Notes under the pieces: model-generated
Database searches by the model: none
Seen by the model: only the letters and a program-made list of their open reading frames with translations
What the model was told of the DNA's origin: nothing
Program-made: the position numbers and the translations under genes
NCBI GenBank assembly: GCA_947646735.1
Contig: CANTFK010000270.1
Location: 434,001 to 498,000, forward strand
Direction: 5' to 3'
Length of the DNA: 64,000 bases
Origin: Peronospora farinosa
Taxonomy: Eukaryota; Oomycota; Peronosporomycetes; Peronosporales; Peronosporaceae
Shown here: piece after piece, positions 2,162-51,922 of the stretch
Layout: each line of letters begins with the position of its first letter
Position numbering within the stretch: the first letter of the stretch is position 1

Positions 2162-3903
2162 CATGTTACGACGTTATCGTCTTCTATCATTGATCTCATT
2201 CGTACGGCGTACGCTAAAGACGATCATTGTGTAGCTTTGCTACACGCTCTTGGCAGTGATGAGTTTGAAGACTCGTACATTAAAATGTCGGAACGAGCCT
2301 TCATCGATATTCTATCGATCAGGGGCTGTGGTAATATTGTGCAGATGTGGCGGATCCTATGCGTATTGTGGTTTCTCATGACGAGGACCTGAAGTATCGT
2401 ATCCTCTATGAGGTACATGAAACCGCCATCGGTGGTCATTTGGGTCACGAAAAGACCTATGGGGCAGTATGCCAAAGTTTTTGGTGGCCCAAACTATATA
2501 AATGGGTGAGCACATATGTGCGTACGTGTGAAACGTGTCAACGGGTGAAACCCTTGCCCCATTCGGCAGCGTAGCTGGCTACTTTTCCTATCCCCACTGG
2601 GTGTTGGGAGTCCATTAGTATGGACTTTGTGTTTGGCCTACCGAAAGATTCGCATGGCAACACAGGTATAGTGGTCTTTGTTGACCGTTTGAGCAATATG
2701 GCTTACTTGGCGGCTGTGCCAGACTCGGTCGATGGTGAAGGTACAGCAGAGCTGTTTATCGAGTTTTTTGCCAACATGGTATGCCAGTGGCAATTGTTTC
2801 TGACCGTGATCCTCGTCTCACGAGTAAGTTTTGGAAGTCCATCTTCCAGGTGCTGAGCACCCGATTGAACATGTCCACAGCGGATCATTCGCAGACCGAT
2901 GGTAAAACCGAACGCGTAAATTGATTTGTTGAATATATCCTCCGCACTGAATGTGCTGAAACGCCTAAGCGTTGGAGCTCTATGCTCCCTGTAGTTGAGT
3001 TTGCACTCAATAACTCCGTACACTTCTCTACCGGCTACACTCCGTTTTATGTAAATGGCCTCACACACCCACGCGTTCCGTTAACGCTACCACCGAGTGG
3101 TTCAGGGCTTGGTGGGGGAGAGGTTGCCGATCGGCTTGCTGATGTCAGCCCTATTACTGTTAAGAAACAGGCGAACGCGTTTCTCGCAACGCGACTGAAT
3201 GTCTTACGACATGTGCAAGACGCAATGGCTGAAGCCAAGATAAACAAAAAGAATATGCGGATGCTCAAGGCAAAAGCTGTATTATTGTTATGAGGTTGTA
3301 GGCCAAGTATTACTAATTGCTAAAACCCTACCTACCAATGTAGTGCCTCCTGTCTCTATGACAAAGTTGCGTCCGCGCTACATCGGACCCTTTACGGTCG
3401 TGGCCAAGAAAGGCTTAGCTTATACGCTTAATTTGCCGCGCAAATTGCGTACACATCCCGTGTTCTACGTCGGCATGCTCAAACGATATTTAGATCCGTC
3501 CCAAGTGAACACTAAGGCGCTCGCGCCGAGCTCATCGGCATTGCCGCGGGACGGATCATCTGCGCCAAAAGGTCAGGCTGACCCTCCACTCGGGTTCGAC
3601 TCTGTTCCAGCGACTCGAGGCGGGAATTTATGGTCTGCACGGTCTTACGGAGAAACTGCACCTCTTGAAGTATCTCAGAATGAGCTTGTACTGGTACACC
3701 AACCTCCTCCGGCTTTGCTTTATGGGCAGGGGAAGCTTCAGTTCCATGTTGAACGTCTACTGCAGAAACGTCGCCGCCATGGTCAAAACCAGTATCTGGT
3801 GAAGTGGCGGGGATATCCCAAGTCGCGAAACTCATGGGAGTTCGAGGTTCCCCTACGACAGGATTGCCCGTACGCCGTGGAAGTATTTGAACGTCTTGCG
3901 TAG
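940..3903 (+). pseudogene. pol: Broken gypsy pol: RT, RNase H remnant, integrase, chromodomain
   Basis: The pieces, in order, are as follows. RT fingers are at about 940-1170 (NAAGLVREN-SPYS type sequence). The catalytic FDD motif is near 1354, directly after an in-frame TAA. The RT thumb 'VKAIFEWPVP..LGLANYLHKYS' is at 1550-1660, and the RNase H end 'KPDKHNALADALSRR' at 2099-2145. The integrase HHCC finger is at 2412-2545 (H-GGHLGH-CETCQ), the integrase core start 'MDFVFGLPK' at 2620, and the core end around 3000-3068. The IN C-terminal 'RYIGPFTVV...THPVFYVG' is at 3370-3475 and a chromodomain ('YLVKWRGYP') at 3740-3870. At least six stops or frameshifts separate these pieces. The product would have been the polyprotein that copies and integrates the element. 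Confidence 0.85.
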
Positions 3904-4792
3904 GGCCAAGCTGTTTCCGATGACGCTTCTCACCAGTATTGGTGAGGGTAGGCGAGTTAGCGGACTCAGCCTGTCGTGAACTCGCGGCTACAGGAGTAGC
4001 CGAAACATTTGAATGCTGGGTTGCAGACGCATATTGCGTTCGTTGAGACTTCAATTTTCCTCGAGCCTTCAGTTTAGCGTAATCGTAGCACATCTTCCGT
4101 TCGAGACGACGCCTGTCACGTTGGCACTTGCTCGTAGAGACCACATGCTGCTCAAGCGTTGTGTATAGTGCGCTCAGCGGCTAAAGGTCTTATCCTCTTC
4201 CTCCTCGGTTCCCCTCGCGAACAGTAGAATGGAAAACCCTTTATAGGAGGGACTGGTGCACCGCGCACTTGCCTGGTGAGGCGTGCCAAGTATTGTCTTT
4301 GCGTAGTAATATGAGGTTCCAGATATCGTTGTCGAAGGGCCGTTCGCGTTGCAACATCCTCGGGTAATATGGCCTCAAGCCAAATGGCACAGCCAGAAAA
4401 AGAATGTCCAGATGCCTCCTTAATGCGTTCTTCCACTGTAGGTAATTTGAACCTATACTGTCGGTGGTCCTGAAGCCTCGCCATATTCTTCGTCCGGCGT
4501 TTGGCGCTTCCTCTCGGTCGATGGTCTGCTGCTGCTGCTCGTCGAGTGGTTTACTAACCGTCGCTGTTGAGGATACGTCAGGCGGGTCACGTAACGCTGT
4601 TAGTGCATCTGCAGCACCACGGTCAGGGAACGGATTCGGTGCATGACTACTGTCATCTTCACCCGTAAGGATGGTTAAAAGGGACCCATCGGGTACCACA
4701 AAGACAGTGTCACTTTTATAATCGATCGCTTCGTCAAGGTCGTCTTCGATGAGGTCCCATAAAGTCTGTGACTCATTGCCAGGAGGCGTCAT
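3512..4792 (-). pseudogene. Antisense ORF between pol and 3' LTR of element 1, coiled-coil C-terminus
   Basis: Three open frames on the minus strand follow each other: 4792-4241, 4484-4152 and 4144-3512. They look like one protein broken by two frameshifts. The N-terminal part is acidic (LWDLIEDDLDEAID) with a DEQQQQ stretch. The middle is basic and hydrophobic. The last frame begins basic (QRDRRRLERK) and ends in a heptad-like stretch (EILQEVQFLRKTVQTINSRL), antisense to the linker between the integrase C-terminal domain and the chromodomain. No known family is recognised. It does not look like gag, having no CCHC. The PPT next to the LTR places the element on + and this ORF in antisense. 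Whether it was ever translated is inferred only from comparison with elements 2, 3 and 5. Confidence 0.5.
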
Positions 4793-4890
4793 TTTGTGTG
4801 CCGTAAACAACCGTAAGGTTTTAAGCGTTCGCTAAAGCACTACCTCAAAGAGGAAAGATGTCGAATGACATTCTATGGGAACGTCAGTCA

Positions 4891-4902
4891 GGTGAAGGAG
4901 AG
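4891..4902 (+). promoter_or_regulatory. Polypurine tract of element 1
   Basis: A purine-rich run (GGTGAAGGAGAG) directly precedes the TG of the LTR at 4903. It is the usual primer site for plus-strand DNA synthesis and fixes the element on the + strand. Confidence 0.6.
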
Positions 4903-5456
4903 TGTAACGGGGTACACGACGGTTGTAACATCATTCCGAAAGTTTACGGTTGAAGTTTCCTTTTCTTGCATATAATGCATTTTGATACTTTTCTTGAGAG
5001 AGGTATTGAGTATAAGCGTTAAAGATACGGTATTCGATAATACCGTATCTTATCGATTGGGATTCGATAGTCGAGAACGCTGTACTAAGTACATCATACA
5101 CAGATGTTTAGACGATACGTCGTCCAATAGCAAAGTCTGCATATTATAATTACGATTATAGTAATTAATCTAGTGTAGGGTACTTAGAGTAGGATTATTC
5201 ATAAAAATCTCAATGCATAAATAAAACCAGTTCTCATTTTGAGTTTAAGATCGCAAGTCGTTCTGATTTATTCTCTTGTGTACTTCGTGCGTTGGTCTTC
5301 TGAATCTTTAAGCTTATTGCTTGTAGACTATAGGTCTCTCTCCTAGTTCCTTAGAACCAATTGGCTTTTAGCCGTAACTTTATTTAGTTCTCTAGAACTA
5401 AAAGGATTTCAGCCTAAAGTCTTCATCTAGCTAAAGAGCTGTGCAGATCCGCTACA
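4903..5456 (+). repeat. 3' LTR of element 1 (554 bp)
   Basis: The LTR starts TGTAACGG and ends GCTACA. It is the same family as the 639-bp LTR at 44920-45558: both share the start, the inverted repeat around AAGATACGG...CCGTATCTT, an AATAAA-like signal (near 5219) and the end GTGCAG-TCCGCTACA. This copy is shorter by internal deletions. The bases after it (atcct) do not match the five before it (gagag), which fits the 3' LTR of a longer element rather than a solo LTR. Confidence 0.85.
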
Positions 5457-6018
5457 ATCCTACTCTCCGAGCAATCGCAAAGAAATAGCATCGATAAATT
5501 GCGTCAGCCACACACGGTGCCTTGCTTTATGATTGCATTGAATTGCTTGAGCGCGACCCTAGAGGGCCCCTAAGTTCTACGGTGGCTAGCTACGATATAC
5601 TGTCCGATCATGCGACGCTGACATCCTGGCTCAGGCCATTCCAGAGATCTTGCACATATTTGGCACCGTGTAAATAAACAATCTGAACCTCTATCACTTC
5701 CTTTGTAACGACAAAAACGTTTTTGCGCAGGAAATCGTCCGTCATGTATGGCTGCGGTTCTCCGGGGATGATTTTACTCGGTCTTTGTACATCCAAGGAC
5801 TTCCTCACAATTATCAAATCAGGCTTAATGCTACGAGCCTTGACGAGTTGACTTCTTCGGACATGGCCATGAGCAAAAACGGGGGATCATACACATGGAA
5901 AGCTCACATATGAAATTGAAAAGAGGACATTTGAGCGTGCTAAATGAGCGATATCTAGGCCTAAGCGTTCCTCATCAGCTCAAATAGCCATGAATCGGGT
6001 TCTTTAAACAAACAGACC
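5457..6018. other. Intergenic spacer between elements 1 and 2
   Basis: No gene can be supported. A 69-codon minus-strand open frame (5608-5817) has a plausible composition but no recognisable domain and could be an exon remnant of the locus into which the elements inserted. Confidence 0.4.
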
Positions 6019-6023
6019 ACACC
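6019..6023. repeat. Target site duplication ACACC of element 2 (left copy)
   Basis: ACACC at 6019-6023 is repeated at 14166-14170, exactly flanking the two LTRs. A 5-bp duplication is usual for Ty3/gypsy integration. It shows the element inserted as one unit. Confidence 0.9.
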
Positions 6024-6484
6024 TGTAATGGGGCACCCTCCGACTATACTGATTACAGTATAGTCTACTTTCACTGATTACAGTGAAAGCAGGTGCCTCA
6101 GTTACCTCTCTTACACAAGAGGCAGAGGAAGCTTTACTTCTAAACAAACGCTTAGAAGTAGAGGAAAAGAAAACTGTATTTAATATAGTTAACTATCTTA
6201 ATAAAACTAATCTGTTATAACCTATGTTAACTATATTAAACTACAACTATGTATGTTGACGACTTGCCCTCCACTCATCGCGCGCGTCCATCGGTCATTG
6301 GTCAGCGCGTTGGTTGATATGATGGCCCATATCAACCAATGAGAGGGCATCTCCAACTTCAAGGAGATCTAGGAACAATATTATTAGAAAAGGTAATATT
6401 GTCAAAATATTATTAGTTATAATAATATTTTTATTGACACTTCATATAAGTGTCAATATTATGTAACGGGCTCACCCCGTTACA
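6024..6484 (-). repeat. 3' LTR of element 2 (461 bp)
   Basis: In element sense it begins TGTAACGGGG and ends CCCCATTACA. It holds a chain of hairpins, for example 6042-6065 (10-bp arms, 4-nt loop) and 6068-6089 (9-bp arms, 4-nt loop). It matches the LTR at 13711-14165 except for one substitution and the first ~35 bases. Confidence 0.93.
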
Positions 6485-6497
6485 TCACCCCCCCCTC
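6485..6497 (-). promoter_or_regulatory. Polypurine tract of element 2
   Basis: On the minus strand a G-rich purine run (GAGGGGGGGGGTGA) lies immediately before the 3' LTR, as expected of a plus-strand primer site. Confidence 0.6.
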
Positions 6498-6531
6498 AAC
6501 CAACAGTCACATTAGTGACTGTTTAGTGACT

Positions 6532-7761
6532 ATGGGAAAGGAGAACTTGTTGAATTTTCTTTCATTCAACAATTACGCTATGACAAAGTCAATGCGCGTC
6601 GCTGCTAAGGCAGCCAAGAGCTCGGCTGCACGCCTGTGTGCAGCCGCGACTGAGACTTTACAGCCTCAGCCAGCAGACACTAATGTGTCTGCTGGAAGTC
6701 AACATCAGCCTGCAACGCCTGTTGCAGGTTCACGTAGCGCTTCGCCACGTGAAGATGTTGACCCAGAGTTAGTCGTTGACTACTCTGGTGAGTCGGATGA
6801 CGCATCCGACTCAAAGCCACCTGTGTCACTCCCGAGCTCTCCCCGGGGTGACACCTCGTCGTCTAACGCTACGAAGAGGGATCGTGATACATTGAGTGAA
6901 TCAATGTACCGTGAAATGTTCGGGTCGTCTGATGAATCAGACGACTCGCCAAACGAGTCGAAGGATAGTGACTCGGGTGGGGACCGTAAGGGTGATGTCA
7001 GTGCTTCTACTGAAATCAATGCTCATAGTGTCGGTACTTCTGTTGACACTAATGCTCGTGGTGTCGGTACTTCTGTTGACACCACGCAGGAGGCTTTAGA
7101 CCGCAACGTATTGCGTCTTGCTCCTGATCGCAAGCCATGAATGCTACCTAAGCATCTGCTTGATCGTTGGTCTGGAAAGACCAACGAACGGTTCACCATA
7201 CCGTTGTTTGATGCGTCAAAGCTTCATGGCCTTGACGCCAGTGCGAAGAACTTTCGCACTGAGAACGATTATTGCATCGATGTGTTCCTTGAACATCGAT
7301 GGTATGGCCCACACAAGAAGCGTGAGGCTGACGCGTTCCTCCAATCTTGGAACGCGTTTATCACCAACGTTTTAAACGTTGGGAAAGAGGCTTGGTTTCA
7401 AAGACTTTTTGCTAGCCGCAATAAGTTTGAGAAACGAAGTACGTCCGGTGCATGCTATCGTTTGCACCGGTTATCTAGAGAGGCAGGCCTGTTATGCCTC
7501 TCTTGGGGCGACCCATGCCCGGGGTGCCTGAGCACCTCGTCAAGAGCGCCTAAGGAGGCGTACCTCCTTACTGAGCCCTGGTTGAGGGCTCGCATCTCTT
7601 CTGAAATGCGTAAGGGATTGCTACTTTGCAATCCCTTTACGAGCGCGCTGGGCGCTCGTTTTCCGATGGTCCTTCACCATCGGGTGCCCTGTTCGACAAG
7701 GCCGGGAACGTCGGCCATCTGTTGGGCCCGAGGTTCCCAGCTATCCGCCGAAGGCGGATAG
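6532..7761 (+). pseudogene. Antisense ORF of element 2, N-terminal and core part (one in-frame TGA)
   Basis: An ATG at 6532 opens a frame of about 410 codons, interrupted only by TGA at 7138-7140 and followed at once by an in-frame ATG. It runs opposite to pol, between the 3' LTR and the end of the chromodomain. Residues ~10-100 are Ala/Ser/Gln rich. Residues ~80-160 are acidic and Ser-rich and include MFGSSDESDD, a motif close to MFGTSDSETE in the antisense ORF of element 3. A basic/aromatic segment follows (WYGPHKKREADAFLQSWNAF). A 36-bp direct repeat encodes the NxxSVGTSVDT and NARGVGTSVDT copies around 7021-7085. There is no CCHC knuckle and no recognised family. Since the DNA is full of local palindromes, part of the openness could be a by-product of strand symmetry. 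Confidence 0.5.
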
Positions 7762-8786
7762 CCACGCCACCGGACGAGATAACTCGTCCGACGTCCCTTC
7801 ACCTCGTGGTGCTTTAGTAAGCGTTCCACGAGGAAGCGCTTCCCACCATGGGAGTCCACCAGCGGATGCGGTGGTGGAGGAAAAACCCTGTCCGATTCTT
7901 TCATCGGACTTGGCTGCTGAGTTAGACGGGTTTGCCCGTGCAACTCGTGAGCTCCGTTGTGATGTTGATCACGAACGGGATAAGCGTCGCCGCTTAGAGG
8001 ACATTGTGCGACAGCTTGGGTTTGACCATGAGAGGTCTCGGGTAAACAATGCTGTCGCACTATTGGAGAATGAACGGCGACGTCATTCTCTGAGTAACGA
8101 GCTGGCGACAGCTCGTCAGGAGATCGTCCAATATCATGGGAAGATCTCATCTCTACACGACCAGATATCGAATCTGGTTCGTGACAACAAGAATCTGAAG
8201 GAGATTCTTGAGAATAACGGCTATCTTCGTCGTTCGAAGAAGCCGCGTACTGAACGTACGGACGAAGACGTCCCACGTAAAACGTAGGATGCGTACGCAT
8301 CCTGCGTGGCAACTCGATCGTGTATGCGTTGCCTAGGCGGCGCAATACACGAAACGGGCCGATGTACTTGGGCAACAATTTATTGCTGCCCACGTTAGTC
8401 ACTACATGTTTAGGTAGGTTTACTGTTGACAGTAAAACTAAATCACCTTCAATAAATGTCTGAGCATTTGCCCTTCCATTATTGTCTGCGTTTCGCTTTT
8501 GCTTATCCACCGCTTCTGCGATGGAGTCTTGCACGAAACGGAGTACCGCTTCACGAGTCAGCAGGAAATCCTCAGCTGACTCGTTGCTTTTGGCTGCAGT
8601 GCATTGTGAATGCACTGCAGAGATATCGGCTACTAAATTAGCGAGAACAATACTGTTCTCACTTGTGATACCTCGAACGATGCTGACATCTTCAGCATCG
8701 TTATCAGTAAGAGCGTCATTGCTCTTACTTTCTTCCTCTTCACCGAAGTCGAATGGTACGACTTCGGTTACTTTCGCGTCGACCAT
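7674..8786 (-). pseudogene. pol: Pol C-terminus: GPY/F domain and chromodomain, element 2
   Basis: The frame reads an integrase C-terminal domain ('KYIGPFRVLRRLGNAYTIEL', then RTHPTFYVGRLRPYV), a polar linker of ~130 residues, and a chromodomain with the signature FLVERLLKHH..TSYLVRWRGYPPSADSWEP. Chromodomains at the pol C-terminus guide integration to chromatin marks in chromovirus-type elements. It overlaps the end of the integrase frame by 19 bases in another phase, showing a frameshift. The polar linker is the part covered by the antisense coiled coil. Confidence 0.85.
7871..8287 (+). CDS. Antisense coiled-coil ORF overlapping the pol linker, element 2
   Basis: A 138-codon + strand frame contains a strongly heptad-like, charged segment (DVDHERDKRRRLEDIVRQL, then LLENERRRHSLSNELATAR and ISSLHDQISNLVRDNKNLK) and a basic tail (RRSKKPRTERT) resembling a nuclear localisation signal. 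It lies antisense to the low-complexity linker between the integrase C-terminal domain and the chromodomain. It is in another frame from the upstream antisense ORF, so the two may be one protein split by a frameshift near 7770-7870. Elements 1 and 5 have coiled-coil frames at the same place. The function is unknown. Confidence 0.45.
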   Translation: MVEEKPCPILSSDLAAELDGFARATRELRCDVDHERDKRRRLEDIVRQLGFDHERSRVNNAVALLENERRRHSLSNELATARQEIVQYHGKISSLHDQISNLVRDNKNLKEILENNGYLRRSKKPRTERTDEDVPRKT

Positions 8787-9724
8787 AACGTCGTCGCGTG
8801 ATGAGCAAGAGCCAGATTGGTTCTCGCTCGAGCGAGTCCCTCCCCCCTTAAATTAGAGTCACCCTCTACTAAGGTGGGGACACGTGGATGGCGAAGTCCA
8901 TTCACGTAGAACGGTGTATGCGTCGTAGACGCATGCACGGAGTTGTTGATGGCGAATTCGACCATCGACAAGAACTCACTCCAACTCGTAAACGAGTGGA
9001 CGTACCCTCGAATAATCTCTTCGAGGACGCGATTGGCGCGTTCAGTCTGACCATCAGTTTCTGGATGGTCAGAAGTAGACATTGTGAGCCGTGTTCCAAG
9101 TGTTTGGAACACGGAACGCCAAAACTCAGCCGTGAACCGGGGGTCCCTATCGGACACAAGTTCACGGGGTAAACCGTGCAATCGAAAGATTGTATCGATA
9201 AACACTCGAGCACAGCCCTCTGCTGTGATCGACTCAGGTACAGCAAAAAGATGCACCATCTTGCTTAACCTGTCTACAAACACGAGAATACCATTATTCC
9301 CGTGAGCGTCTTTGGGAAACCCAAAGACGAAGTCCATTGATACGGACTCCCAGCACTCTGCCGGAACAGGTAAAGGCTGCAATGGTGCACGGAGTGAAGG
9401 ACTAGGCTTCACTCGTTGATACACCTCGCAAGCACGCACGTACTTGCGCACAAACTTATACTGGCGTGGCCAGTAAAAGTCGCGACTGACCGTGAGGTAA
9501 GTTTTCTCACGGCCGCGATGCCCACTTATTGGTGCATCGTGACATTCAAACATGATCCGTAACCTGAGATCATGTTGTGGCGGTACAACGACACGAGGCG
9601 TGTCGTTGTTGACGACTGTGTAGTACAGTAAGCCGTCCCGCTGGGTATATCGATCTAGAGAAGATCGATACATGGCAGGCAAGCGCTTCTTAGCTTTCGT
9701 GGATGGGTCCTTGAGGTACTCCAT
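8768..9724 (-). pseudogene. pol: Integrase zinc finger and catalytic core, element 2
   Basis: The HHCC finger is recognisable (CHDAPISGHRGREKTY ... RACEVYQRVKP), but its last cysteine is Tyr (CEVY instead of CxxC). The core has MDFVFGFPKD, SDRDPRF and a glutamate in ANRVLEEII, fitting the D,D35E pattern. DNA joining would need the intact protein. The finger change and the downstream frameshift make activity doubtful. Confidence 0.85.
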
Positions 9725-9760
9725 CAGGCGTACAAGATCATTATCTTGTGCGCATGCCCT

Positions 9761-11005
9761 TCAAATGTCGTCGAGTAAACTCGACGACAAGACGCTGGTA
9801 CTCAGCGTGGCGACAGTGGTGTTCACATCACTGTCGGATTGCACAGTCGGCTCTAGGTCAGGCCGACGTGAGAGGGCATCGGCGACGACGTTAAGTCGTC
9901 CCGGCTTATGCTCCACGGAGAAGTTGTACTCCGCGAAGAATGACAACCATCTCGACATTCGTTGCGAGAGGTGTGGACTGTTTACAGCCGTGCGTAGTGA
10001 CGCATGGTCTGTATATACAATGAACGGTCTATCTCCTAAGAGATAGACGCGAAACTTAGCCAGTGCATTCTTCATGGCAAGGAGTTCCTTGTCATGCACC
10101 GGGTAATTGCGCTCAGCCGGTTGCAGCTGACGCGATTGATAACAGACGACACGCTCGGCGCCGTCTGTATCATATTGCATCATTGCGCAGCCGATTGCAA
10201 AATCACTGGCGTCACAGACCACATGAAATGGTCTGTCTTGATCGGCAATCGCCAACACTGGCGATTGCATCAAGCTTTGCTTGATACGCTCAAAGGAGCG
10301 CTGACAATCAGCGTTCCAGTTCCACTTTACATTTTTCTTGAGTAAACAAGAAAGATGTACTGTCATTTCGGCGTAATGGCGCGAGTACTTGTGCAAGTAC
10401 GCCGCTAGCCCAAGGAACTTCCTTAGTCCCTTGACATCGACTGGCACTGGCCAGTCGGTGATCGCCTTGATCTTCTCTGGATCAGGGCGTACGCCGTTCT
10501 TTCCGACGATGCACCCAAGAAGAGGTATTTCGCTAGCTGCGAATATACACTTCTTGAGGTTGGCGTACAACTTATGCTCTCGCATAAGTGTAAGAACCTT
10601 ACGGACGTGGAGTCTATGGACTTCCACGTCTGTTTTCCCGTCCATAGCCCGACTATGGACGAACACATCATCGAAGTAACTCGGTGCGAATTCGCGCACC
10701 GGTCTCAATAGATGTGAAACACATCTATTGAATGTGGCTGGTGCATTACTAAGCCCTTGCGGCATCACCAACCATTCCCAGAGCATACCACTGGGAGTGC
10801 TCACTGCTGTGTACGGGATGTCCCGTTCACGCATTAGGATCTGATAGAAACCATCCATCAGATCCATGGACGAAAAGATGGTACTCTTACACATACCATC
10901 TATGATTACGTCCTTTCTCGGTATCGGCGTTTGCGCCGGTATCGTTGCAGCGTTCAACTTATTGAACGCGTGCACTATCCGCCACCCTCCTGTGGCCTTG
11001 CGCAC
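9761..11005 (-). pseudogene. pol: Reverse transcriptase and RNase H, element 2
   Basis: The frame holds RT motifs in order: GWRIVHAFNKLN, FSSMDLMDGFYQI, MPQGLSNAPATF, the catalytic YFDDVFVHS, and the thumb KAITDWPVPVDVKGLRKFLGL. RNase H follows, with CDASDFAIG, the glutamate of VHDKELLAMKNAL, TDHASL and the tail VADALSRR. The upstream RT fingers lie in the interval 11006-11163 but are cut from this frame by a TGA and a 1-base loss. The catalytic residues seen are intact, so this part decayed little. Confidence 0.9.
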
Positions 11006-11163
11006 ACAGAAGGTCGGAGAGCTGTGAGGTGAAGCTGACTATCTCACATGGCCCGCTGCTAGGCGATCGGCAAAGAACTTGTCGATCGCCTCGACCTGTT
11101 CCCGAGGCAGTGGCCACTGCTTCATGACACAATACTTGTGCCAGGAACAAGGTCGATCTCGTG

Positions 11164-12492
11164 TCAAGTACCTTTATCCTTAGGTAACTCGCACGGAACG
11201 GATTCAGGGAATACATCCTTGAATTCGACCAAATCCTTATACAAAGGATTTGACTTCAGCGACTCCCAGGATTGCGATGTATATCGCTCAATCCGAGTCT
11301 TCTCATCAAGGACACTCTCGTCCATTGATGAGCTGCTGAGAACCCGTTCGTTCTCGGCAAAAACTGTTGCTGACCGAATGTCAGTCATGTGCTCGTCCTC
11401 TGCGACGAGCACACAGATCTGCTTGACTTTGCCACTACGCAGATCATGCAAGAACCTTTTAGGTTCTAGCGTATGCAACTGAGTTATCTCCGAAGTTAAC
11501 TTCGGAGGCGCGATCAGATCAAGCGTATAAGCGCCTACGTTTGATCCGTCATTAACCAAGACGTTCAACGTCTCGGTTACTTCCTGGGGACTTATTCCCT
11601 CAGGGCACTGGGGACTTATTCCCGCAGGCTCGATGGAACTTGTTCCATCGACTTCCTCTAGCTGTGGTGGCGCAACCACAGCAAGATCCTCTACGATCAA
11701 CTCTCCAGTTGATCTAGGATTACCGTGTTGCCGCTTCTGGGCAACCGGTTTACTCTTCGGTGAATGCTGCCCTCTAAGCGAGCATTCATGTCCCGGTCCA
11801 CTCGGCTTATTCGAGTGGTGGACCTTCGGCGCTGCCTGTGCTTGTGCACAGCCGCCGGCAGCTTGCTCCACAGCGTGACTGTCTGTCACGCTGAGTTCTT
11901 GTGCAGTCGTACTAACGACCGAACCACAAGTGAGGCCATCACACTCACTCGTAGTACATTCACACGCTTGTGAACGCTCCAAGACGTTCATCAGATGGCC
12001 ATCTGATGAACAAGCGGCAGGCATCTTCACGGTTCGATGCTGCCAGCTGACCCATGGCTCGTACCTTCTGAGCCATGGTAATCCTAGAATGACATCAAAT
12101 TTGTCATCCAGATCAAGTACGATGAAATCATCATCGTACCTTTTGCCTTCAAGCGTGTAGTGAATTCCCACTACACGCTTCTTTACTGTTACGGATGCGC
12201 CCGTTGCAAGGCGCACCGTCATCCTCGTTGGAGGGGTCTCGCGCTCAACATATTTGAGCCTACGATCATCTAGCGATTGGCGTCGAACGAAGTTGTTCGA
12301 AGCCCCACAATCAACTAGGGCGCGAAGTGACATGTTCTTGGTCACTTCGATCTTCAATGTGATGAGGGATACCTCATCACTGGGAGCGGCAACACACAGT
12401 GACTGTGTGTTGGGAGCAACCTTCGTCAAGAGTCCCGCGAACTCTCTTGACGTTGCTGGATCAGTAGGGCGCTCCGCCCCTACTGACCCCAA
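11164..12492 (-). pseudogene. pol: Gypsy-type aspartic protease and protease-RT linker, element 2
   Basis: The active-site motif reads ALVDCGASNNFV, the D-x-G-A-S form common in Ty3/gypsy elements, followed by the flap region and GLPWLRRYEPWVSW, typical of retropepsin-like domains. A long polar linker leads towards RT. The frame ends with TGA at LPKDKGT, where related sequence would continue to the RT fingers; a nearby single-base loss confirms decay. Confidence 0.8.
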
Positions 12493-13696
12493 CCGTTTTT
12501 TGATGGTCCACCACGTTGTTGCGATTTCGCAGCAACGTGGGACCCACGTCTCTGGCCCTTCTTGGCAGACGGTCTATCGTCACTCCCAGTGTTACGAGAC
12601 ACTAGACGTGGGGCACTACACTCATAAGCGTAGTTTCCCAGCTTCTGACAGCGATTGCACTTTTTAATCGCTTGTACCCTGGAGAGCGAAGTCGCTCGCT
12701 CTCTACATAGGAGAGGTCCATTGGTTCTGGACCTCCGCCCTCCTGTCGTCTCGGTGGACGATAGGACCCCGAGTGGACGTGAGCCTGTTGCAGGCTAAAG
12801 TCCTCCTATTCCGCTGCAGAGATCGCTTGATCCAGCGATTCTAGTTCCAAGCGGAACAGGTGGGTCTTGACAGGACCATCTTTCATACCCTTGATGAACA
12901 TAGTAACCAGCGTGTGTTCATCGATTGGGTTCAGTACGATACAACTAACGAGGTATCGTACGTGTTGGGCGTAAGCGTGTATATCACGCTTACCCTGTTC
13001 CAAATCCAGGAGCTCAGCCCGAGCCCTGAATTTGGCGCGAGGCGGTTCAAACGTGGGTTTGAGCCGCGCCTTGAAGACGTCATACGTTGGGAAAACGTAT
13101 GGGTCGTGCAGTTTGAGCCCTAAGGCCCAAGCTTTGGCACGTCCTGCCAAGTTCGACATGGCGAACTTGACCTTCATCGCATCGTCATCGATGCGACGAG
13201 CCTCAATGGCATCGTCGAGCTCGACGAACCATCTCAACAAGGATTCGCTTTCGACTGCCTTGTACTTGGAGACATCAATCTTCAAGGACTCGGGTCGACG
13301 TGTATACGTCGACCCGGCAGCAACAGCACTAGCCTGCTGTTGTCTCAACAGTTCAGACTGTTGAGCACCCTGCTGCATCAACCAGTCAGCTTGTTGAGCG
13401 CCTTGTTCTCTCAACAGTTCAACCTGTTGATAACCTTGCTTCTCTAGCAAGGTGAGTTTCTTTACAACTTCGTCAAGTTCATGTTGTATGAACTTGGCGA
13501 TGGTTGCATGTTGGTCGTCTCCGCTAAGAGAGAGCAACATGGCACCAACGGCAGGGTTGCCGATGGTTTCAGCCATACGCTGAACAGCATTCCATTCGAG
13601 GTCACTCAAATGGCGAAAATCATCACGCGTTGCGTGATGACGTTCATCACCCGCTGATTCCATAGCGGGTGGTGCGGTGGTCGCTGAACGGACCAC
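12493..13696 (-). pseudogene. gag: Gag with stop codon and frameshifted CCHC knuckle, element 2
   Basis: The capsid part (13696-12806) has a Gln-rich repeated segment (QQGAQQ units, residues ~100-125) and a retrotransposon gag domain (LLRWFVELDDAIEAR...FKARLKPTFEPP). A TAG at 12806 ends it. Beyond the stop the same frame continues to PEPMDLSYVE, and after an A-run near 12665 the frame must shift to read the knuckle CNRCQKLGNYAYEC, in which the usual His is Asn. The first listed codon is GTG; the first ATG is about 12 codons inside. Confidence 0.8.
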
Positions 13697-13708
13697 GAAG
13701 TGCTACCA
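13691..13708 (-). promoter_or_regulatory. tRNA primer binding site of element 2
   Basis: Two bases after the 5' LTR the minus strand reads TGGTAGCACTTCGTGG, beginning with TGG, the complement of a tRNA CCA end. The matching tRNA is not identified here. Confidence 0.6.
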
Positions 13709-13710
13709 GG

Positions 13711-14165
13711 TGTAATGGGGCACCCTCCGACTATACTGATTACAGTATAGTCTACTTTCACTGATTACAGTGAAAGCAGGTGCCTCAATTACCTCTCTTA
13801 CACAAGAGGCAGAGGAAGCTTTACTTCTAAACAAACGCTTAGAAGTAGAGGAAAAGAAAACTGTATTTAATATAGTTAACTATCTTAATAAAACTAATCT
13901 GTTATAACCTATGTTAACTATATTAAACTACAACTATGTATGTTGACGACTTGCCCTCCACTCATCGCGCGCGTCCATCGGTCATTGGTCAGCGCGTTGG
14001 TTGATATGATGGCCCATATCAACCAATGAGAGGGCATCTCCAACTTCAAGGAGATCTAGGAACAATATTATTAGAAAAGGTAATATTGTCAAAATATTAT
14101 TAGTTATAATAATATTTTTATTGACACTTCATATATCGGTGTTGTAACGGGGTGAGCCCGTTACA
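13711..14165 (-). repeat. 5' LTR of element 2 (455 bp) with altered tip
   Basis: It is identical to the 3' LTR except one base and the tip. The tip (14135-14173 including flank) is a 17-bp-arm inverted repeat with loop GTGAG. The right arm ends in the host flank ACACCGAT, and the left arm carries its inverted copy ATCGGTGT inside the LTR. The 23-base terminal motif is in the opposite orientation from the one in the 3' LTR. Confidence 0.9.
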
Positions 14166-14170
14166 ACACC

Positions 14171-14511
14171 GATTTCATTACTTTTCTCACATCTACAGTA
14201 CCGGAAGTCTCACAAAGTGACCTGGAAAGAATAGCAAATACGATTATATGACGGATGCTAACAACATTAATGTCATACAGCTGCAACAGCAGCATCACAT
14301 AGCTCCTGCATCTTGCAACGGCGGCAAACTCTCCTTTAATAAGACGTTCAGCAACAACGGAGGAAGACGTGAGAGAACAAACTAAGGACCTTCGAATCGG
14401 AATCACAGCGGACACGACGGACCATGAGAGAGCGTGGGTCACGATCCCAGTGATCAAGTCACAACTAGCCGCGCATTCCCACAGACGAGCCGACGACCAA
14501 AGCCAAAAAAA
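14171..14511. other. Spacer right of element 2
   Basis: No gene is supported. Short open frames on both strands have no recognisable content. Confidence 0.4.
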
Positions 14512-14899
14512 AAAGAGTCTCTACTCAGTAACGCTGGACGAAAGAAAAAGGCACAACGGTCAAATAAGCACGCCACTCTACAGTTCGAGAAAGGAGAGGC
14601 GATGCAGCAGGCAGGGGAGCCTTCACTCGCCGTGAGATTCCTACCATCTCATCGACGGACTACTTGATGAAAATTGTAGGCCGGAGTACCGTAGAGCGAT
14701 CTATTCCAAGATATTCGAGGATCGACGTTCGGATCCCTGCCATGGTAAGATCAAGCTGTGTTACGACAAGAAATTTCTCTTCATCGTCGCGCAATTGGGA
14801 GAAGACGATGTTCCTCGCGGTGTGCTGGAACGTACGCAATGGCAAGGGCTAGATCTGACGGACGCAATTTTAACCTCGACATTGGTTTACGGAATGTAA
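14512..14899 (+). pseudogene. Possible host exon remnant next to the element 2 insertion
   Basis: Two successive + frames read like ordinary protein: first SNAGRKKKAQRSNKH, then TLQFEKGEAMQQAGEPSLAV to about 14640. After a one-base shift near 14640 comes YHLIDGLLDENCRPEYRRA and LCYDKKFLFIVAQLGEDD, up to the TAA at 14897-14899. There is no start codon and no upstream continuation across the retrotransposon 340 bp to the left. It may be the 3' end of a gene cut by the insertion. No family is recognised. Confidence 0.35.
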
Positions 14900-15246
14900 T
14901 TGGTGGTGTGCTTCCACCGTGACGTTCGAAGTATCAAGCCAATATACTGCATGCACCTGACTCGTCCGCAAGCGAGCAAAGCGTGTGTGTGTGCTTTATG
15001 AAACTAGTTGAAGCGAGTACATGTACGTAGTTAGATATATTTAATATATAAATGTGTACTTCTAGCGCTTTCAGCAGTTCTGACATCTGCAATTCACGTT
15101 TGAATGCGTGTAAGTGTTGACTAGTGCTTGTACTAATGCATATTCATAGCTACAGCCGAGAAACACACTTAGCGATGCTGGGGGGACCCCACTTTGACTG
15201 CAGATTAGACCATGTATAGCGGAAAAGGATGTAGTGCATTTACCTT
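14900..15246. other. Intergenic, no gene seen
   Basis: AT-rich sequence between the possible exon remnant and the 3' end of the lactonase gene; it would contain that gene's 3' untranslated region. Confidence 0.5.
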
Positions 15247-16428
15247 CTAAAACTCTGCGACATAAAGACCTACAGCCGAACCAATCTTATACTTGTTTCC
15301 CGTGAACGAAAGCAACCCCGTCTTCCAGTCCACTTTGAACACAAACATATCGTTCGTATCCTGGTTGGCCACAATCAGATGCTTATGGTAAACCACAAAG
15401 CTACGAGGACACTTTCCTCGGGTTTTCTCCCATCCAAGCGACACGAGGGTACCATTGGTCTCAATCTTGAAAATCGCAATGGAGTCGTGGCCGCGGTTTG
15501 AAGTGTACAGGAACTTGCCATTGCTGGACAAATGGATGTCAGCGCTGATACTAGTAATGTTCCCACTGTCACTCGGAAGCGTCGTGATTTCTTGTAGAGC
15601 CTTCTTTGACAATTTAGCGTCCTCGTTGTCGATTTCGTAAACGCTGACAGTATTGCTGAGCTCGTTTACAACGTACGCGATTTTGCCGTTAGGGTGAAGT
15701 GCCATATGACGTGGTCCAGCTCCACGGGAGCTCTTCACAGTCTTCATTTTCTTCAGCTTCTGCTTTTTTGGTTTCAGCTTGAACTGTAGCAATTTGTCGC
15801 TACCTAAGTTTGCAACAACAAGGTGATCCGAGTTTGGTAGCCACATAGAGCTTTGGATGTGGCCGGCCTCCTGTCGTTCCTTGACGACCTTGCTACCTTT
15901 CCGGAATTTTTTATGGTATGTCTCCTTGCCAAGAGAACCGTCATCTTCATTAATCGAGAACATCGTGAAACTGCCAGCGTAGTTGGAGACGACAACAAAA
16001 GTCTCGGCAGAGTTTAACGAGATGTGGGTTGGTGATCCACCGCGCGTTGGGAGCGTGTTTAGCAGCTTAAGCGTACCGTCGCCATTCAGGGTGAGGGCCG
16101 ACACGTATCCAGTGACCTTGCCGCGCTTTCCAGAGACCACGTCGTCAACGGAGTTCACTGCATAGATCACTTTGTTGCCAGTATGAAACTTCTTGTGGGA
16201 AGCGAGGACGAATATGGGGTTGGTTCCCACCTCCGAGACCGCCCATTTCTTAAGGGATCCATCGTCCATGATCTTGTACGTGTAGATGCCTTCACCCGTA
16301 CCATTAATCCAGCCCATGTCAGAGGTATAAGTCCCAGCAAAAAGGATCGGTTGCGTGCTTATATGGTGACTCGACCAAACGCCCGACACGGCGACCACGA
16401 TGCAGAGGAGGAGACACAAGAAGTGCAT
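15247..16428 (-). CDS. Secreted lactonase-like seven-bladed beta-propeller protein
   Basis: The 393-residue product belongs to the 6-phosphogluconolactonase / carboxy-cis,cis-muconate cyclase-like (Lactonase) beta-propeller family. Signature stretches are FAGTYTSDMGWINGTGEGIY near the N-terminus, GAGPRHMALHPNGKIAYVVN in the centre, and DIHLSSNGKFLYTSNRGHDS followed by CPRSFVVYHKHLIVANQDTND near the end. The ATG at 16428 is chosen because it directly opens a signal peptide (MHFLCLLLCIVVAVSG); the frame extends 16 codons further upstream without an ATG. The signal peptide suggests a secreted or endomembrane protein, unlike the cytosolic bacterial Pgl. The substrate cannot be told from sequence. 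No introns are needed. Confidence 0.85.
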   Translation of the reverse strand: MHFLCLLLCIVVAVSGVWSSHHISTQPILFAGTYTSDMGWINGTGEGIYTYKIMDDGSLKKWAVSEVGTNPIFVLASHKKFHTGNKVIYAVNSVDDVVSGKRGKVTGYVSALTLNGDGTLKLLNTLPTRGGSPTHISLNSAETFVVVSNYAGSFTMFSINEDDGSLGKETYHKKFRKGSKVVKERQEAGHIQSSMWLPNSDHLVVANLGSDKLLQFKLKPKKQKLKKMKTVKSSRGAGPRHMALHPNGKIAYVVNELSNTVSVYEIDNEDAKLSKKALQEITTLPSDSGNITSISADIHLSSNGKFLYTSNRGHDSIAIFKIETNGTLVSLGWEKTRGKCPRSFVVYHKHLIVANQDTNDMFVFKVDWKTGLLSFTGNKYKIGSAVGLYVAEF

Positions 16429-17465
16429 CTTGAGGATCGCTCTAAAGTCTGTTGTGCACGGTGCTGCAAATAACAAAGTGAGCCAAGTCGAGTGCAGCGT
16501 GAATCCTGCGAGCCATTCATACCAGTAAATGGTAACGTCTCTATCTCGGTGGCCTGCTTGCTTGTCATTCTTGGCCGATCAGAAAAAGTAGGAAGGGCAT
16601 CCAGTTTCATATCATATAGCAGCTGATGTATGTAGAAATGGAAGTTGCAAGGAGTCTGAACCAGCTCACATGACGCAAACGTCGTAAGAAATGATGATAA
16701 AGGATCACTTCAAGGAAGGTCAACTGCGAATCCTGGGCGGACGCTATGCGCTTTCTACATAATCCTTCAAGGCCCTCCATTTGTCTAAGCAGCACTCTGC
16801 CTCAATCGATATGGCTGAACCAATTACTCGCAAATGCTTTTTCATTCTTGTCTCTGCTACAATCTGTAGAGTGTTAAGATGAACGACGCATTCATGTCAT
16901 CGACAATGGTCTCGAACATGACAAAGTCATGACAACAACCAATTGTCAAGTACAATTCCTCCTCTTCTGTCTCAGCTGCTCATGCTCAAAACATGGAAAC
17001 TGCCAGATTCCAAATTCTGCTTGTGTCTGATCCGCAGACCAGACATGAGCATGAGCAGTACTTCAACCACTTCGTATCATGCCTTCGACCACTTCTTCTC
17101 TCATCCGTATATGGTCCTTTGGCTGATGCTGTAACCTACTACTTCTCCTATCTGCTAAATAATGTCGGTCCCGCTGAGGTGTCCTAGTTAATGATAGAGT
17201 ACGTGTCCTAGCAGTGAATCTACAGAAGTGCGAGCGACAACAAACATATTGCATTGATATCTATGTAGGCTCTTGGCAGCGTGCTTGAAAAGGCTAGTTA
17301 CAGATCAATATGGGATGAGAATTGTCAGTATCCAAGTCATAAAGTGTCTGCATCAAGTCGGTGTGTGCCGATAAAGTTCTCACCGGCGCCGATCACGTTC
17401 AAGAAGTTGGAAACGTGTACAAGTTGCCTGCCGTCGCATATCACATCACTTGACGTTCGTAATTC
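16429..17465. other. Intergenic, no gene seen
   Basis: About 1 kb between the lactonase start and the PNGase 3' end. Open frames on both strands are short and unlike any known protein. It should hold the lactonase promoter. Confidence 0.5.
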
Positions 17466-20400
17466 CTATTGCGCACCGACGTTCTTGAGATAATGCATTC
17501 GCTTGTGAGCCTCTGCTGCGATTCGCTGCAAAGGTGGTTTATCTTGCACATGCCACGGCTGAAAAGTGAAAAACTGGTCTTCATGTTCGAAAGTCTCTTC
17601 GAAACCGCACCATATCATGAAACATGTGGCTACTTCACTGCCTAGCACGCCAACGTTTGCAGCAAAATACTTGTTGCTCGCGCGAATACGCTGGAATTTT
17701 GACTCTTCTGGATGTTGCGCAATGTTATCTAGGTATCGCAATGCTGAGAGAGTAATGCAAGGTAAGCAATCCATGCGGTTCATTCATGTCCTAGCTCCGT
17801 CCGTACCGGCAGAAATTGCAAGTTGGCGGTTTGGATCTTCACCGGAAGGCAGTATCTTCTGAAGGTCTTGAGCCAATTTACCTTCCATGATGAGTTTGTA
17901 AGTATTTGGGCACAACATAACACTAATTATCAACAAGGCAGCCACTACACGTACTTTCGAGCGCTTTGATCGGTGTGGCCTGAAGCACAAACACGCTGGC
18001 ATCAGTCAAGTGATCACCAATCTTGAACGATATGGAGCGGATTTCGCTGTCTGCAGGTGTAGGCACATTAAAGTCACCTCCTCCCTTGCCTCCGCACGTG
18101 ATTGAACGCCCAAAATTGGTGTGCAATGTAATGCTGTCGATCCAAACACCCTTACGACCACTCATTCGTGTGATGATCTCGTCCGGTAACAAATCAAGCA
18201 TGGCTGTTGGTTGAGACGCTTGACGTTGCGCGTTAGCATTCCCCATCAGCGAGCCAAACACGGTGACAGGCGCATCGTTTAGGTCGTCTATCTTGTCGTA
18301 AGCGAACTGAAGACCGTCAAAACAGTCACTTCCCCACACTTTACATTAACAAGAAGTCAAACACATAATGTTATAACACGCACTGCAAGCTCACACAATT
18401 AGTGGCAGTATTCGAGTGAACCAACTTACTCAAAATGCGCGCGACACGATACACTGATTGAGCTTCAGCGGCAACTTCAGAACACCTCTCGCCGCCGCGC
18501 TCACCGTCGGACCTGAATGCCTTCAGAGGCGGAACAGATACGAATGCCTTCATACCAGCGCAAAAAGTTTGAGCTTCATCCAGGGATTGTACAGGTATCA
18601 TGGCCACGTGGCTTATTACAGCAGCAATGCTTGGATAAGTGCTAGCAGGTCCCTCGATAGTAACACCACTTTTTTTCCTCGACACGCTCCATCAAGCACC
18701 AGCATCTCCGTTCCATTGATGTACATTGCGATAGCATTTTCGCCTAGTAACACAGCGATGTGCGCATACTGACCAAAGGCTAACAACGAAGTCGTACATA
18801 TAGCCGTCTCTGTAGTCTCCTTCTTAATTTGAAGCTCGCACGAAAACTGCCGCTCTGAGTTGCTCCAGTGTATACAAAAGATTGGCGGCGTCGGGTCGGG
18901 AGATCCAATTCGACCAGCTAGAACTCTGATCGTAACGTCTTCGTTATCTTTGAGCGCCTTGTTCCGATCAAAGCGAACAAGAAATGACAGCAAGACGTCT
19001 GTAAGGGGTAGCAAATTGTGACCCGCGATTGACAAAAACTTTCCACCAAGTAACTGCATCCCAAACGCCTCATCATTCCTTCCGCTTCCAGCTCCGTTAT
19101 GGTCATCATTTGTCGGGCCTGCATTCGGAATGCGGAATGGCTTACGCAACCCACAACGCTGAGAATTGTCTGCGTGATTGTCATGACCTGACACGTCAAG
19201 CAGAGGCACGCCTCTATCGCTACATGTAGAAGGGATGTCTTGCAGTGGTAAGTACAGCAAAGGTTGATTCTTCCACATAAAATTACGAAGCTCTGTACGT
19301 GTGAGTGGACACAGAAGCATCATGAGGGCTTCTGACGAGAAGCGTACGGAGCTCAAATTTGATGCCACTTGAATAGCTTGGGCAGCACGCTCATTTACAT
19401 CGGGTGGCACCCTTGTACGATTTGACCGCGTCCGACCAGTGAAGCAAAAAGGATTGGAGCATTCTGAGAATTGACAACCAACCACCCAATTTCGGCATAT
19501 ATCTTGCAAAACCTTTTCAGCTGGCACAGAAGTGGATGTTGCCGCTAAAGGTGACGCACTTGCAGTGCTGACGGGCACGTTTTCTTGTTTTCCAGCTTCA
19601 TTACGACGGTTTTTCCATTCAGCCGATCCTGAAACACGTCCATTGACCTCGCTGTTTCGAGCAGAGCGTCCGTATAGTAGCTCATCGCGCTCAGCTGTTT
19701 TACGTTTCGTCAAAATCGCTACCCTTTCAGGACTTTGCCGTTCCCAGAGGCCACAATTCATTTGATTGATAGTCGTCTCCAGCCACTTTTCACTGACATC
19801 CTGACGCCTTGTGAGCATTTCGGACCAGTTGAGCGTGTATCGCCTAGCCGAGTCTACCACTTCATCACGACCAAACGAGAAAATGTACGACAGCTTTTTG
19901 CCCCATCCAACCTCATATGTCAAAGGACAATCAAGCTGCTCTTCGCATGAATCGCAGTGCAGCCACCGCTTATAGTGCTCAGAATACACCTCAGTCCACA
20001 CGTGGTCCGTAACATCAAGAACATAACGAGCCTCAAATCCCATTGCGCGGCAGCAGAGTGTGAAGCAGTTTGCCCATTCTCCACATCGACCGGTACGTGT
20101 ATCCAACAACTTAACTGGATCATTGTAACGAGGAAATCGAGTATAAGCCCCACATGCAGGGCACTGATACACCTCAACCCGGCCGGCCTGACCAGCTATC
20201 TCTTCAGCGGTGCTGGGGCCCTCCGTCCGTACCGATTGTGTTTTTTCGTATTTACATACCGAGCAATGAGGTTGGTTCATCCATGTGAAGAACTCACGCT
20301 TAAACCAGCGCAGTAATTGCTTAATCAATTCGTCCTGATAGAGTGACATCGGTGACGTGTTAGATCGAGCACGTTCGTGTAGCGTGTCCACTGGGATTCG

Positions 20401-21676
20401 CTTGAGTGCCTCTTCCTGCATCTTTTTATTTTCGTATGACTGTGCACGTTGCAACCCGCTTTGTAATCGCTTCAACATACTCGGTTGATGTTGGCGGTAG
20501 TGTTCCTCCATAATCGTCGCATCTCCACGCCTTCTATCGGCTGCTAAAGCAGCTTGAGCAATGGTCAGCCGTTGCTCTTCAAAATCTAGTACGCTTTTCA
20601 CTCGAGTCAGATGACGGGTTGCAAAAAGACATTCTCCGAAGTCGCTGTGCTCTGTGCCGGAATCACACGCGAAGCCGCCCAGAGGTAGTAAACGATAGTA
20701 CAGGAAAACAGGTAGAGAGCCCATTGCACCTTCGTTCAAATTTCGTGTGATCTTGACGTACCCCGGAGAAGGAACAGGCTGATCGCCAACAACAATGGCA
20801 ATATCAGTGATGGCGAGCGTTTCGAGCTGCTCTATATTGCCTTTGAGCTGCACTGAGTCATATCCGATACGACTCCTCATTTTCAATCCATTAATAGCAG
20901 TGCTACCACTATCGCAGGCAATCTCAACCAATTTTTCTGGTTTATACGATATTGAATCATTCACGGGGGGCATAGCATCGCCAGCGCCTCGTTGCTCCGA
21001 GAGAACGCGGATCTGCGTCAATGCTCGCGGACCGCCACGCTGAACACACAGGTACATATAGTTGCCCGACGCCGAGTACTTTAAATCCACTGGTAACTTT
21101 ATAAATCCAGACGGTGCAGCAACATCCACGTCTCCAGCAACAACAACTACATCGGAAATGAACCGTGATGCCATCAATTGTGACGCATTCCACTCCATTG
21201 GACTCACAGGCTGGAAACCTATATCCACAACAAACAACATTGTAAGCAGCTGATTGATTACTAAAAAGTATCACTCCCACCACCACGTTTTACCTGTAGT
21301 GCAAGTCCTCGCACAAGGTTCACAGATAAAACCAAACTCCGAATCCCTCGGAGTAATTTTCTGAAAAGCTGGTTGTACCACTGCAGCATCTCCAAATGTA
21401 CTTTTGGTGCAAATTTGTCTCCAATCGTCCGCAAGTTCCGACAAATTCAACGTCGAGTCAGTACTGGAGAAGAGAAAGAAGCGAGGACGAGTTTCCGTCG
21501 ATATTGCGACTGTCACCACGTCAGACTTCCTAGAAACGGACAGCACTTTTCCAGTACTGGAACACATTAAGATTTGCTCGTCCGGTATCACTCCAACAAG
21601 CGAAAATAACTGACATTGGAACAAATCCAGAGGAAGCGACTTTCGATCGAAAAAAGCTTGAGCTGCAACGTAAAAC
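17466..21676 (-). CDS. PNG1: Cytosolic peptide:N-glycanase with UBL, MABP-like, transglutaminase, LamG-like and PUB domains
   Basis: It removes N-glycans from misfolded glycoproteins exported from the ER. Proposed exons on the minus strand are 21676-21294, 21218-18430, 18338-17955, 17881-17807 and 17743-17466; a first exon upstream of 21677 is unresolved. Domains in order: a ubiquitin-like fold (SLVGVIPDEQILM); two MABP-like beta-prism repeats (DVVVVAGDVDVAAPSGFIKL and DIAIVVGDQPVPSPGYVKI); zinc ligands CSVCK and CPAC; and the transglutaminase triad in GRCGEWANCF, DHVWTEVY and LHCDSCE. A concanavalin/LamG-like module, a GKGGGDFNVP jacalin-like segment and a C-terminal PUB domain (ALRYLDNIAQHPEESKFQRI) follow. 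Introns have GT..AG ends and are 63-91 nt; the 63-nt one removes an in-frame TGA. A run of seven A near 18670 puts the LamG end out of frame with what follows. This is either a one-base sequencing error or a real truncation that would remove PUB. Confidence 0.85.
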
Positions 21677-21696
21677 CTGCGCGTTAAAACGACCAA

Positions 21697-51876: not shown

Positions 51877-51922
51877 TCCGCCCCCTGCACTTGCTCAACC
51901 GTACAACGGATTGAGCACGCGC

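Follow-up and report, generated by a model that had tools for sequence, protein, structure and literature searches.

A Ty3/gypsy retrotransposon of Peronospora farinosa tiled with short perfect hairpins, with template switching and selection as competing explanations

Ty3/gypsy chromoviruses are members of the Metaviridae that carry a chromodomain with their integrase. The subject of this study is a long terminal repeat (LTR) retrotransposon of this kind, found at positions 6024–14165 of a 64,000-nucleotide stretch of Peronospora farinosa DNA (assembly GCA_947646735.1, contig CANTFK010000270.1, positions 434,001 to 498,000 of the forward strand; hereafter, the window) and densely covered with short perfect inverted repeats. 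Perfect hairpins in RNA are usually taken as selected structure, and this element represents a coding case with an extreme excess of them. Among related elements, yeast Ty3 genomic RNA has been described, in the available part of one report, as carrying six short palindromes near its 5′ end, one of which acts in dimerisation (PMC11381356). Copying has been put forward as another source of such structures: template switching creates and maintains RNA hairpins, as described for RNA genes and DNA replication in the accessible portion of PMC8794818, and between inverted repeats in yeast genes it has two outcomes, homogenisation of the arms and inversion of the spacer (PMC8604942, as far as its available text goes).

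Hairpin density in the element, host genes and related families

Inverted repeats were defined as perfect, with arms of at least 7 bp and loops of 0–12 nt. The element contains 130 of them, a density of ~16 perfect short hairpins per kb, whereas dinucleotide shuffles (n = 50) averaged 5.6 and never exceeded 10; arms of at least 10 bp were observed 32 times against 0.08 in the shuffles. Arms cover 2224 and loops 720 of the 8142 bases, and the tiling is found in LTRs, coding regions and antisense open frames alike. The count of about 80 hairpins given with the original prediction, against 5–6 by chance, was exceeded. All ten hairpins which it listed as examples were recovered, although four proved longer than stated: 6670–6695 (11-bp arms), 6789–6813, 10705–10731 (12-bp arms) and 11986–12011 (26 bases, not 20). 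The latter, with 13-bp arms and a loop of 0, is the longest perfect palindrome in the inverted-repeat list.

With loops of 3–8 nt, arms of 4 bp were close to chance level (134 observed versus 119 in shuffled sequence), while 5-bp (77 versus 31), 6-bp (33 versus 7) and 7-bp arms (20 versus 2.4) were in excess; longer arms numbered 24 at 8 bp, 25 at 9 bp and 13 at 10 bp, with none above 12 bp. A sharp preferred arm length was rejected, the excess starting at 5 bp, forming a shoulder at 8–9 bp and dropping above 9 bp. Loop sizes peaked at 4–5 nt, with an excess extending to ~13 nt and fading beyond. Loops above ~40 nt displayed no clear excess, and long-range pairing was rejected; outside the arms, pairing was at chance level within a few bases. 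Spacing between hairpins (mean 83, median 64, standard deviation 64 bases) had no period visible by eye, and no common motif was prominent in the loop list or in 3-mer counts. At 7026–7086 a single hairpin is present in two adjacent copies with identical loop and inner stem; one pair is A-T in one stem and G-C in the other, both stems being perfect.

The relation of hairpins to coding sequence was assessed using codon shuffles that keep the protein and codon usage (n = 100 for five coding pieces of the element, n = 20 per host gene). Hairpins observed versus expected were 16 versus 1.65 in gag, 21 versus 1.83 in the protease piece, 17 versus 1.31 in reverse transcriptase, 12 versus 0.93 in integrase and 17 versus 1.26 in the chromodomain piece. 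Synonymous shuffling thus abolished the hairpins in all five pieces, their density being far outside the protein-preserving range, which indicates that synonymous sites have been shaped, as had been proposed from the sequence of this copy. The register in which third codon positions pair with each other, and first with second ones, was under-represented (17 of 83 hairpins). The hairpins are located where the protein tolerates them: judged against 115 relatives, 46 of 91 reverse transcriptase codons in arms correspond to conserved residues, compared to 199 of 299 elsewhere (p = 0.0065). Predicted folding in segments of 150 bases was 40–55% more stable than in codon shuffles on the sense strand of the coding pieces and 41–61% more stable on the antisense strand. 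No folding excess was present on the sense strand of three host genes, whose antisense strands were slightly below expectation.

Six host genes in total carried 0–2 hairpins versus 0.7–1.6 expected from codon shuffles, in other words chance level, as claimed originally. An open reading frame (ORF) with an RVT_1 domain at 57957–59867 was also at chance (2 versus 1.4), and one copia piece (L059) had 3 versus 1.44. The further suggestion that the tiling is peculiar to this element was borne out only in part, as it also occurs in two other Ty3 families, about half as densely as in that of the window. The second family (13 loci, 60–61% nucleotide identity) carries 5.5–7.3 hairpins per kb, compared to 11.5–14.5 for the window's family, of which 17 loci were counted alongside; six second-family loci had 15–24 hairpins versus 1.6–2.9 in codon shuffles. 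The third family (L060; 75% identical to the second and 66% to the first) has 9 hairpins in 1.2 kb. Folding excess on the sense strand was 10% in the second family (L034) and 4% in the third. With both families tiled and host genes at chance, the trait belongs to a group of Ty3 elements; it is strongest in the window's family, in a sample that covered one copia piece and one other reverse transcriptase ORF.

Loop inversions, strand symmetry and turnover of hairpins

Comparison of 120 hairpins across 26 copies revealed five orientation-checked allele pairs in four hairpins (raw count) in which one allele carries the reverse complement of the other's loop, the arms being the same and the flanks almost the same. 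This is the spacer inversion expected of template switching. Copies L016 and L024 have the 4-nt loop of the hairpin at 6670–6695 in inverted form, a difference of 4 bases. At 11798–11818 the loop CTTAT becomes ATAAG in L027 (3 bases differ, with 8-bp arms in the copies compared). Loop alleles CT and TT at 11630–11651 co-occur with their reverse complements AG (L022) and AA (L018), and GTAT at 13291–13316 has the counterpart ATAC in L020 (2 bases differ); the two-base inversions in L020, L018 and L022 are weaker cases. An initial set of 32 apparent loop flips was cut to these five after a check of flanks, the rest being taken as neighbouring inverted copies of the element.

A sixth case was identified by LTR comparison at the end of the 5′ LTR in the window, where the terminal hairpin (14143–14165) has an inverted loop and arms extended to 17 bp (14135–14173). 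Its inner side carries the reverse complement of 8 host-flank bases, which implies that the switch occurred at or after insertion. The 17-bp arms span the insertion border.

Homogenisation of arms, the other expected outcome, was seen in recent copies as single multi-base candidates, such as two changes in L018 at 8101 and 8105. Complementary double changes were present in L018, L023, L031 and L040, and one in L026 was dismissed as a misalignment. A scan of 873 substitution clusters for inverted templates (match of at least 12) gave a weak result, with 10 window alleles and 1 copy allele versus 0 and 3 in the reversed control.

If one strand were under selection as folded RNA, G-U pairs should be tolerated on that strand. 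No such tolerance was visible in the standing stems: stems containing wobble pairs numbered 59 on the sense and 57 on the antisense strand, the G-U share of predicted pairs was 6.1% and 6.4% on the two strands, and both strands folded equally. Perfect arms free of G-U preference are what template switching would leave. An apparent strand preference among one-mismatch stems (sense G-U 7, A-C 17) was rejected, as it was gone in the wider count of wobble stems and not significant at family level (sense strand: G-U 13, A-C 23, transversion type 20; p = 0.13). The G+C fraction of stems (0.525) was similar to that of the internal region (0.516), arm length was uncorrelated with G+C in the internal region (rho = −0.01), and loop-closing pairs were G-C in 44 of 82 hairpins. 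Background composition and the lack of an internal trade-off between length and G+C suggest that stems are defined mainly by complementarity rather than by stability.

Conservation of pairs between families was compared with the expectation for two sides diverging independently. In alignable pol, 224 pairs of 27 hairpins from L045, a member of the window's family, were Watson-Crick in L034 at a fraction of 0.46 (expected 0.447), and the reverse comparison gave 0.439 (expected 0.429). Values for the second versus third family were 0.567 and 0.72 (expected 0.559 and 0.668, respectively); two hairpin sites were retained between them, one through a C-G to T-A double change. Since pair conservation is close to that of independent divergence, density is maintained while most individual hairpins turn over. 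Conservation of helices or covariation between relatives, which would be anticipated for a selected RNA, was not apparent in these comparisons.

Collectively, strand symmetry, background composition, the lack of site conservation and the loop inversions favour copying. We tentatively propose template switching in the course of reverse transcription, with protein constraint as a filter, as the main source of the hairpins, more likely than selection; the reverse transcriptase is probably the switching agent. Short template switches during copying of the element, probably in reverse transcription, would allow the growing strand to copy a nearby near-complementary arm, whereby a quasi-palindrome could be perfected or its loop inverted. 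Protein constraint would set where hairpins survive, paired bases, once formed, would be altered less often than unpaired ones as long as the lineage is active, and hairpins would persist until replaced by point mutation and new switches. More hesitantly, we suggest that the copying machinery of the element may continually rewrite its coding and non-coding genome into a chain of perfect hairpins, tuned by protein constraint and weak retention.

Variation among copies and competing explanations

Variants were analysed in 27 sequences, comprising the window element and 26 distinct copies, with an arm accepted when half or more of the copies had it; the same set without L026 was used for complementary double changes. 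Five of the 20 copies fetched (L015, L019, L022, L026 and L028), rearranged or poorly aligned, were excluded from some analyses, including those of hairpin creation and breakage. Variants shared by two or more copies were taken as mostly predating insertion.

In the internal region, shared variants occurred at 2.58% of arm sites versus 4.04% of sites elsewhere (0.64-fold, p = 0.004) and reached 7.76% in loops (p = 1.6 × 10⁻⁴), the lower level of fixed change in stems than in loops that selected RNA would display. Private variants did not differ significantly (17.2% in arms, 18.1% elsewhere and 20.8% in loops). The contrast among shared variants held at codon position 3 (3.7% in arms, 6.7% at other sites, 15.2% in loops). 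Outside the frames the corresponding figures were 2.9%, 5.3% and 5.8%, with loops resembling other sites, so that the loop excess is confined to frames. Shared variants broke 27 hairpins versus 42.9 on random placement (minimum of 29 in 20 trials), and private variants broke 181 versus 196. Rarer shared but not private variants suggest that arms were retained before insertion and drift freely afterwards; this pattern can be explained by selection, by correction or by shielding of paired bases from mutation.

The deficit of shared variants in arms is the first of several observations that weigh against template switching as the principal source. Private variants created hairpins at the random rate (32 versus 28.95) and shared variants barely above it (9 versus 6.9, range 4–11). 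Five complementary double changes (three in the LTR of one copy) did not exceed the level for shifted partners (mean 2.5, maximum 8), and none were found among shared variants. Divergence from the second family was no higher in arms than at other sites (0.634 versus 0.616), and window-specific replacements at conserved reverse transcriptase residues were not enriched in arms (3 of 46 versus 12 of 199). The loop inversions are few, seven other hairpin sites (LTR twin counted once) have loop alleles at least 3 bases different that are not inversions, and host DNA replication could also invert the loop of any perfect hairpin; the small number of bases changed per inversion weakens the case for copying further. 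Shared variants in arms tend towards sense-strand G-U (G-U 21, A-C 13, transversion 16; raw counts), the figures for private arm variants being G-U 100, A-C 97 and transversion 144. For arms of at least 8 bp across the whole element, A+T-rich LTRs included, length did trade off with G+C (rho = −0.27, p = 0.02). Short direct repeats, at least 8 bases long and within 60 bases, show a milder excess too (21 versus 4.5 in plain shuffles), which a template-switch model leaves without explanation.

The scarcity of shared arm variants speaks for selection or an older origin, as does the missing surplus of new hairpins, and recent copies without an excess of new perfect arms leave the mechanism unsettled. 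The comparison of copies proposed with the original prediction, which asked whether differences perfect or break arms, thus gave a mixed answer: recent variants do not perfect arms above chance, and shared variants break fewer hairpins than expected at random. Of the two mechanisms proposed there, template switching and selected RNA structure, each has evidence for and against it.

Selection is a close rival, possible if somewhat doubtful. Under this explanation the replicating nucleic acid would be kept folded in many small hairpins, individually replaceable, whose density would count, for instance by aiding packaging, concealing the element from small RNAs or helping to control reverse transcription. 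Such selection would account for the scarcity of shared internal variants in arms and their abundance in loops, including at codon position 3, for the low number of hairpins broken by shared variants and for the lean of shared arm variants to sense-strand G-U. Folding of the sense strand beyond codon shuffles and the peak of loop sizes at 4–5 nt are in line with it as well. However, both strands fold equally, standing stems have neither a G-U preference nor a high G+C content, sites are conserved no more than independent divergence predicts, and the folding excess is small in the other two families. The arm deficit of shared variants was moreover absent in the left LTR (8.0% versus 6.4%) and not significant in the second family (2.3% versus 3.0%), and the arm-length range, not being sharp, weakens this reading further. 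The evidence is split between template switching and selection.

A third reading, in which the hairpins date from an earlier burst of template switching and now only decay, is unlikely; here pairing would protect bases from mutation during the single-stranded phase of the element, giving arms a conserved look. It would agree with the little evidence that recent copies have gained hairpins and with shared internal variants being commonest in loops and rarest in arms; three families at about 61–75% nucleotide identity nevertheless carry mostly different hairpins, which makes a single burst insufficient, and some copies whose LTRs differ little (L027, 1 of 423; L020, 1 of 416) have inverted loops.

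It is quite improbable that the hairpins of this multicopy sequence come from replication or repair of host DNA instead of from reverse transcription. The inverted host flank in the terminal LTR hairpin points to at least one switch at or after insertion, but neither the window's RVT_1 ORF nor six host genes exceed chance level, and private variants have no arm bias. Chance, composition, coding constraint or assembly error has a negligible probability, given that dinucleotide and codon shuffles exclude the first three and that many copies on other contigs carry the same hairpins.

Element structure, surroundings and relation to known systems

The element is multicopy: 40 of 40 scored matches in the genome were 95–100% identical, out of 487 candidates. 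Its domains lie on the minus strand in the order gag, protease, reverse transcriptase-RNase H and integrase (13702 to 7674), followed by a chromodomain 3′ of the integrase, which places it among the Ty3/gypsy chromoviruses. A gag-like ORF at 12806–13702 (Retrotrans_gag, E = 1e-12) is followed by an ORF containing the protease at 11164–12573 (RVP_2, E = 5.5e-9), reverse transcriptase and RNase H at 9761–11038 (RVT_1, RT_RNaseH_2), integrase at 8768–9760 (H2C2 and rve domains) and a segment with an SH3-like domain of Tf2-1 type and the chromodomain at 7674–8852 (SH3_Tf2-1; Chromo, E = 1.6e-11). The frames of this copy are broken, and longer open frames are present in some other copies. Among the best 120 of 2938 matches, the nearest named relatives of the reverse transcriptase were from Peronospora effusa (96% identity over 71% of the query), followed by Peronospora matthiolae (79%) and Phytophthora (~70%), with reverse transcriptases of other Peronospora at 79–86%; these relatives point to a Peronospora as the probable host. 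No DNA relatives were found in the collections of viral contigs and genome contigs searched.

The 3′ LTR, recognised by repeat comparison at the left end on the plus strand (6024–6484), is hairpin-tiled like the rest of the element, and the 5′ LTR was delimited by LTR alignment at 13711–14165; both are on the minus strand. LTR ends are TG..CA, with the 5-base target-site duplication ACACC on both sides (6019–6023 and 14166–14170). A single difference separates the two LTRs across 425 aligned sites, after which they diverge at the terminal hairpin of the 5′ LTR. Despite this, ~1.1% of the internal region (79 of 7256 sites, compared to 15 other copies) is private to this copy, suggesting that much of the variation may predate insertion or that the LTRs were homogenised. 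Two bases past the 5′ LTR, at the position of a putative primer-binding site, lies TGGTAGCA, a putative match to the initiator-Met tRNA; no tRNA gene was found within the 64-kb window. On the plus strand, the ORF list contains two antisense open frames in the same reading frame with a stop between them (6397–7140 and 7141–7761). The latter has 25 homologues, of which all named ones are from Peronospora and none has a Pfam domain.

Elsewhere in the window the excess was milder: hairpin numbers versus dinucleotide shuffles were 12 versus 3.85 at 1–6000, 12 versus 7.4 at 14166–26000, 14 versus 1.3 at 26–28 kb (several owed to a single trinucleotide repeat), 12 versus 12.3 at 28–44 kb, 11 versus 1.2 at 44–46 kb and 31 versus 11.5 at 46–64 kb. 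A 298-base repeat, 92% identical, is present at 4909–5206 and 44927–45224, its copies together carrying five perfect hairpins of 9–13 bp. Large perfect inverted repeats occupy 1–2161 (arms 1–624/1538–2161 and 624–924/1237–1537, with a centre of 312 bases), and 50265–57414 and 62881–64000 contain inverted arms of 1169 bases and more copies of the same repeat.

Signs that copying makes stems coexist in this element with signs of stem retention. Many young copies, and families that are about 61–75% identical and differ in most of their hairpins, represent a natural test of stem birth, and the group makes it possible to ask whether genome structure can be imposed by the reverse transcriptase that the genome encodes. 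If hairpins are indeed copied into being at replication, this would be an unusual route to a structured genome, with genome-wide structure resulting from the copying process. In a literature survey judged by titles and abstract openings, with subscription journals mostly outside it, no retrotransposon tiled likewise was found, and the literature on ordered RNA structure, judged in the same way, held no retrotransposon case.

The element resembles other Ty3/gypsy chromoviruses in its LTRs, gag, protease, reverse transcriptase-RNase H, integrase and chromodomain, in their order and in their placement on a single strand; it is unlike them in its ~16 perfect short hairpins per kb and in the antisense open frames beside the 3′ LTR. 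With the genome-scale ordered structure of RNA viruses it shares structure of a coding genome beyond codon-shuffled controls. Known values for those viruses are much smaller than 40–55%, whereas the element has an excess of this size and no strand preference.

Perfect arms, inverted loops and short spacers are shared with quasi-palindrome template switching in yeast, as presented in the available text of PMC8604942; the cases there are yeast coding genes, while here five inverted allele pairs, one with 8-bp arms, fall in one 8-kb element with hairpins along its whole length. The stems are perfect, and copying could produce them with no need of G-U intermediates, as in the accessible portion of PMC8794818, which concerns RNA genes and DNA replication rather than a retrotransposon. 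Finally, yeast Ty3 is likewise an LTR retrotransposon whose RNA carries structure and short palindromes; in the available part of PMC11381356 these palindromes lie near the 5′ end, whereas here hairpins are found throughout the element.

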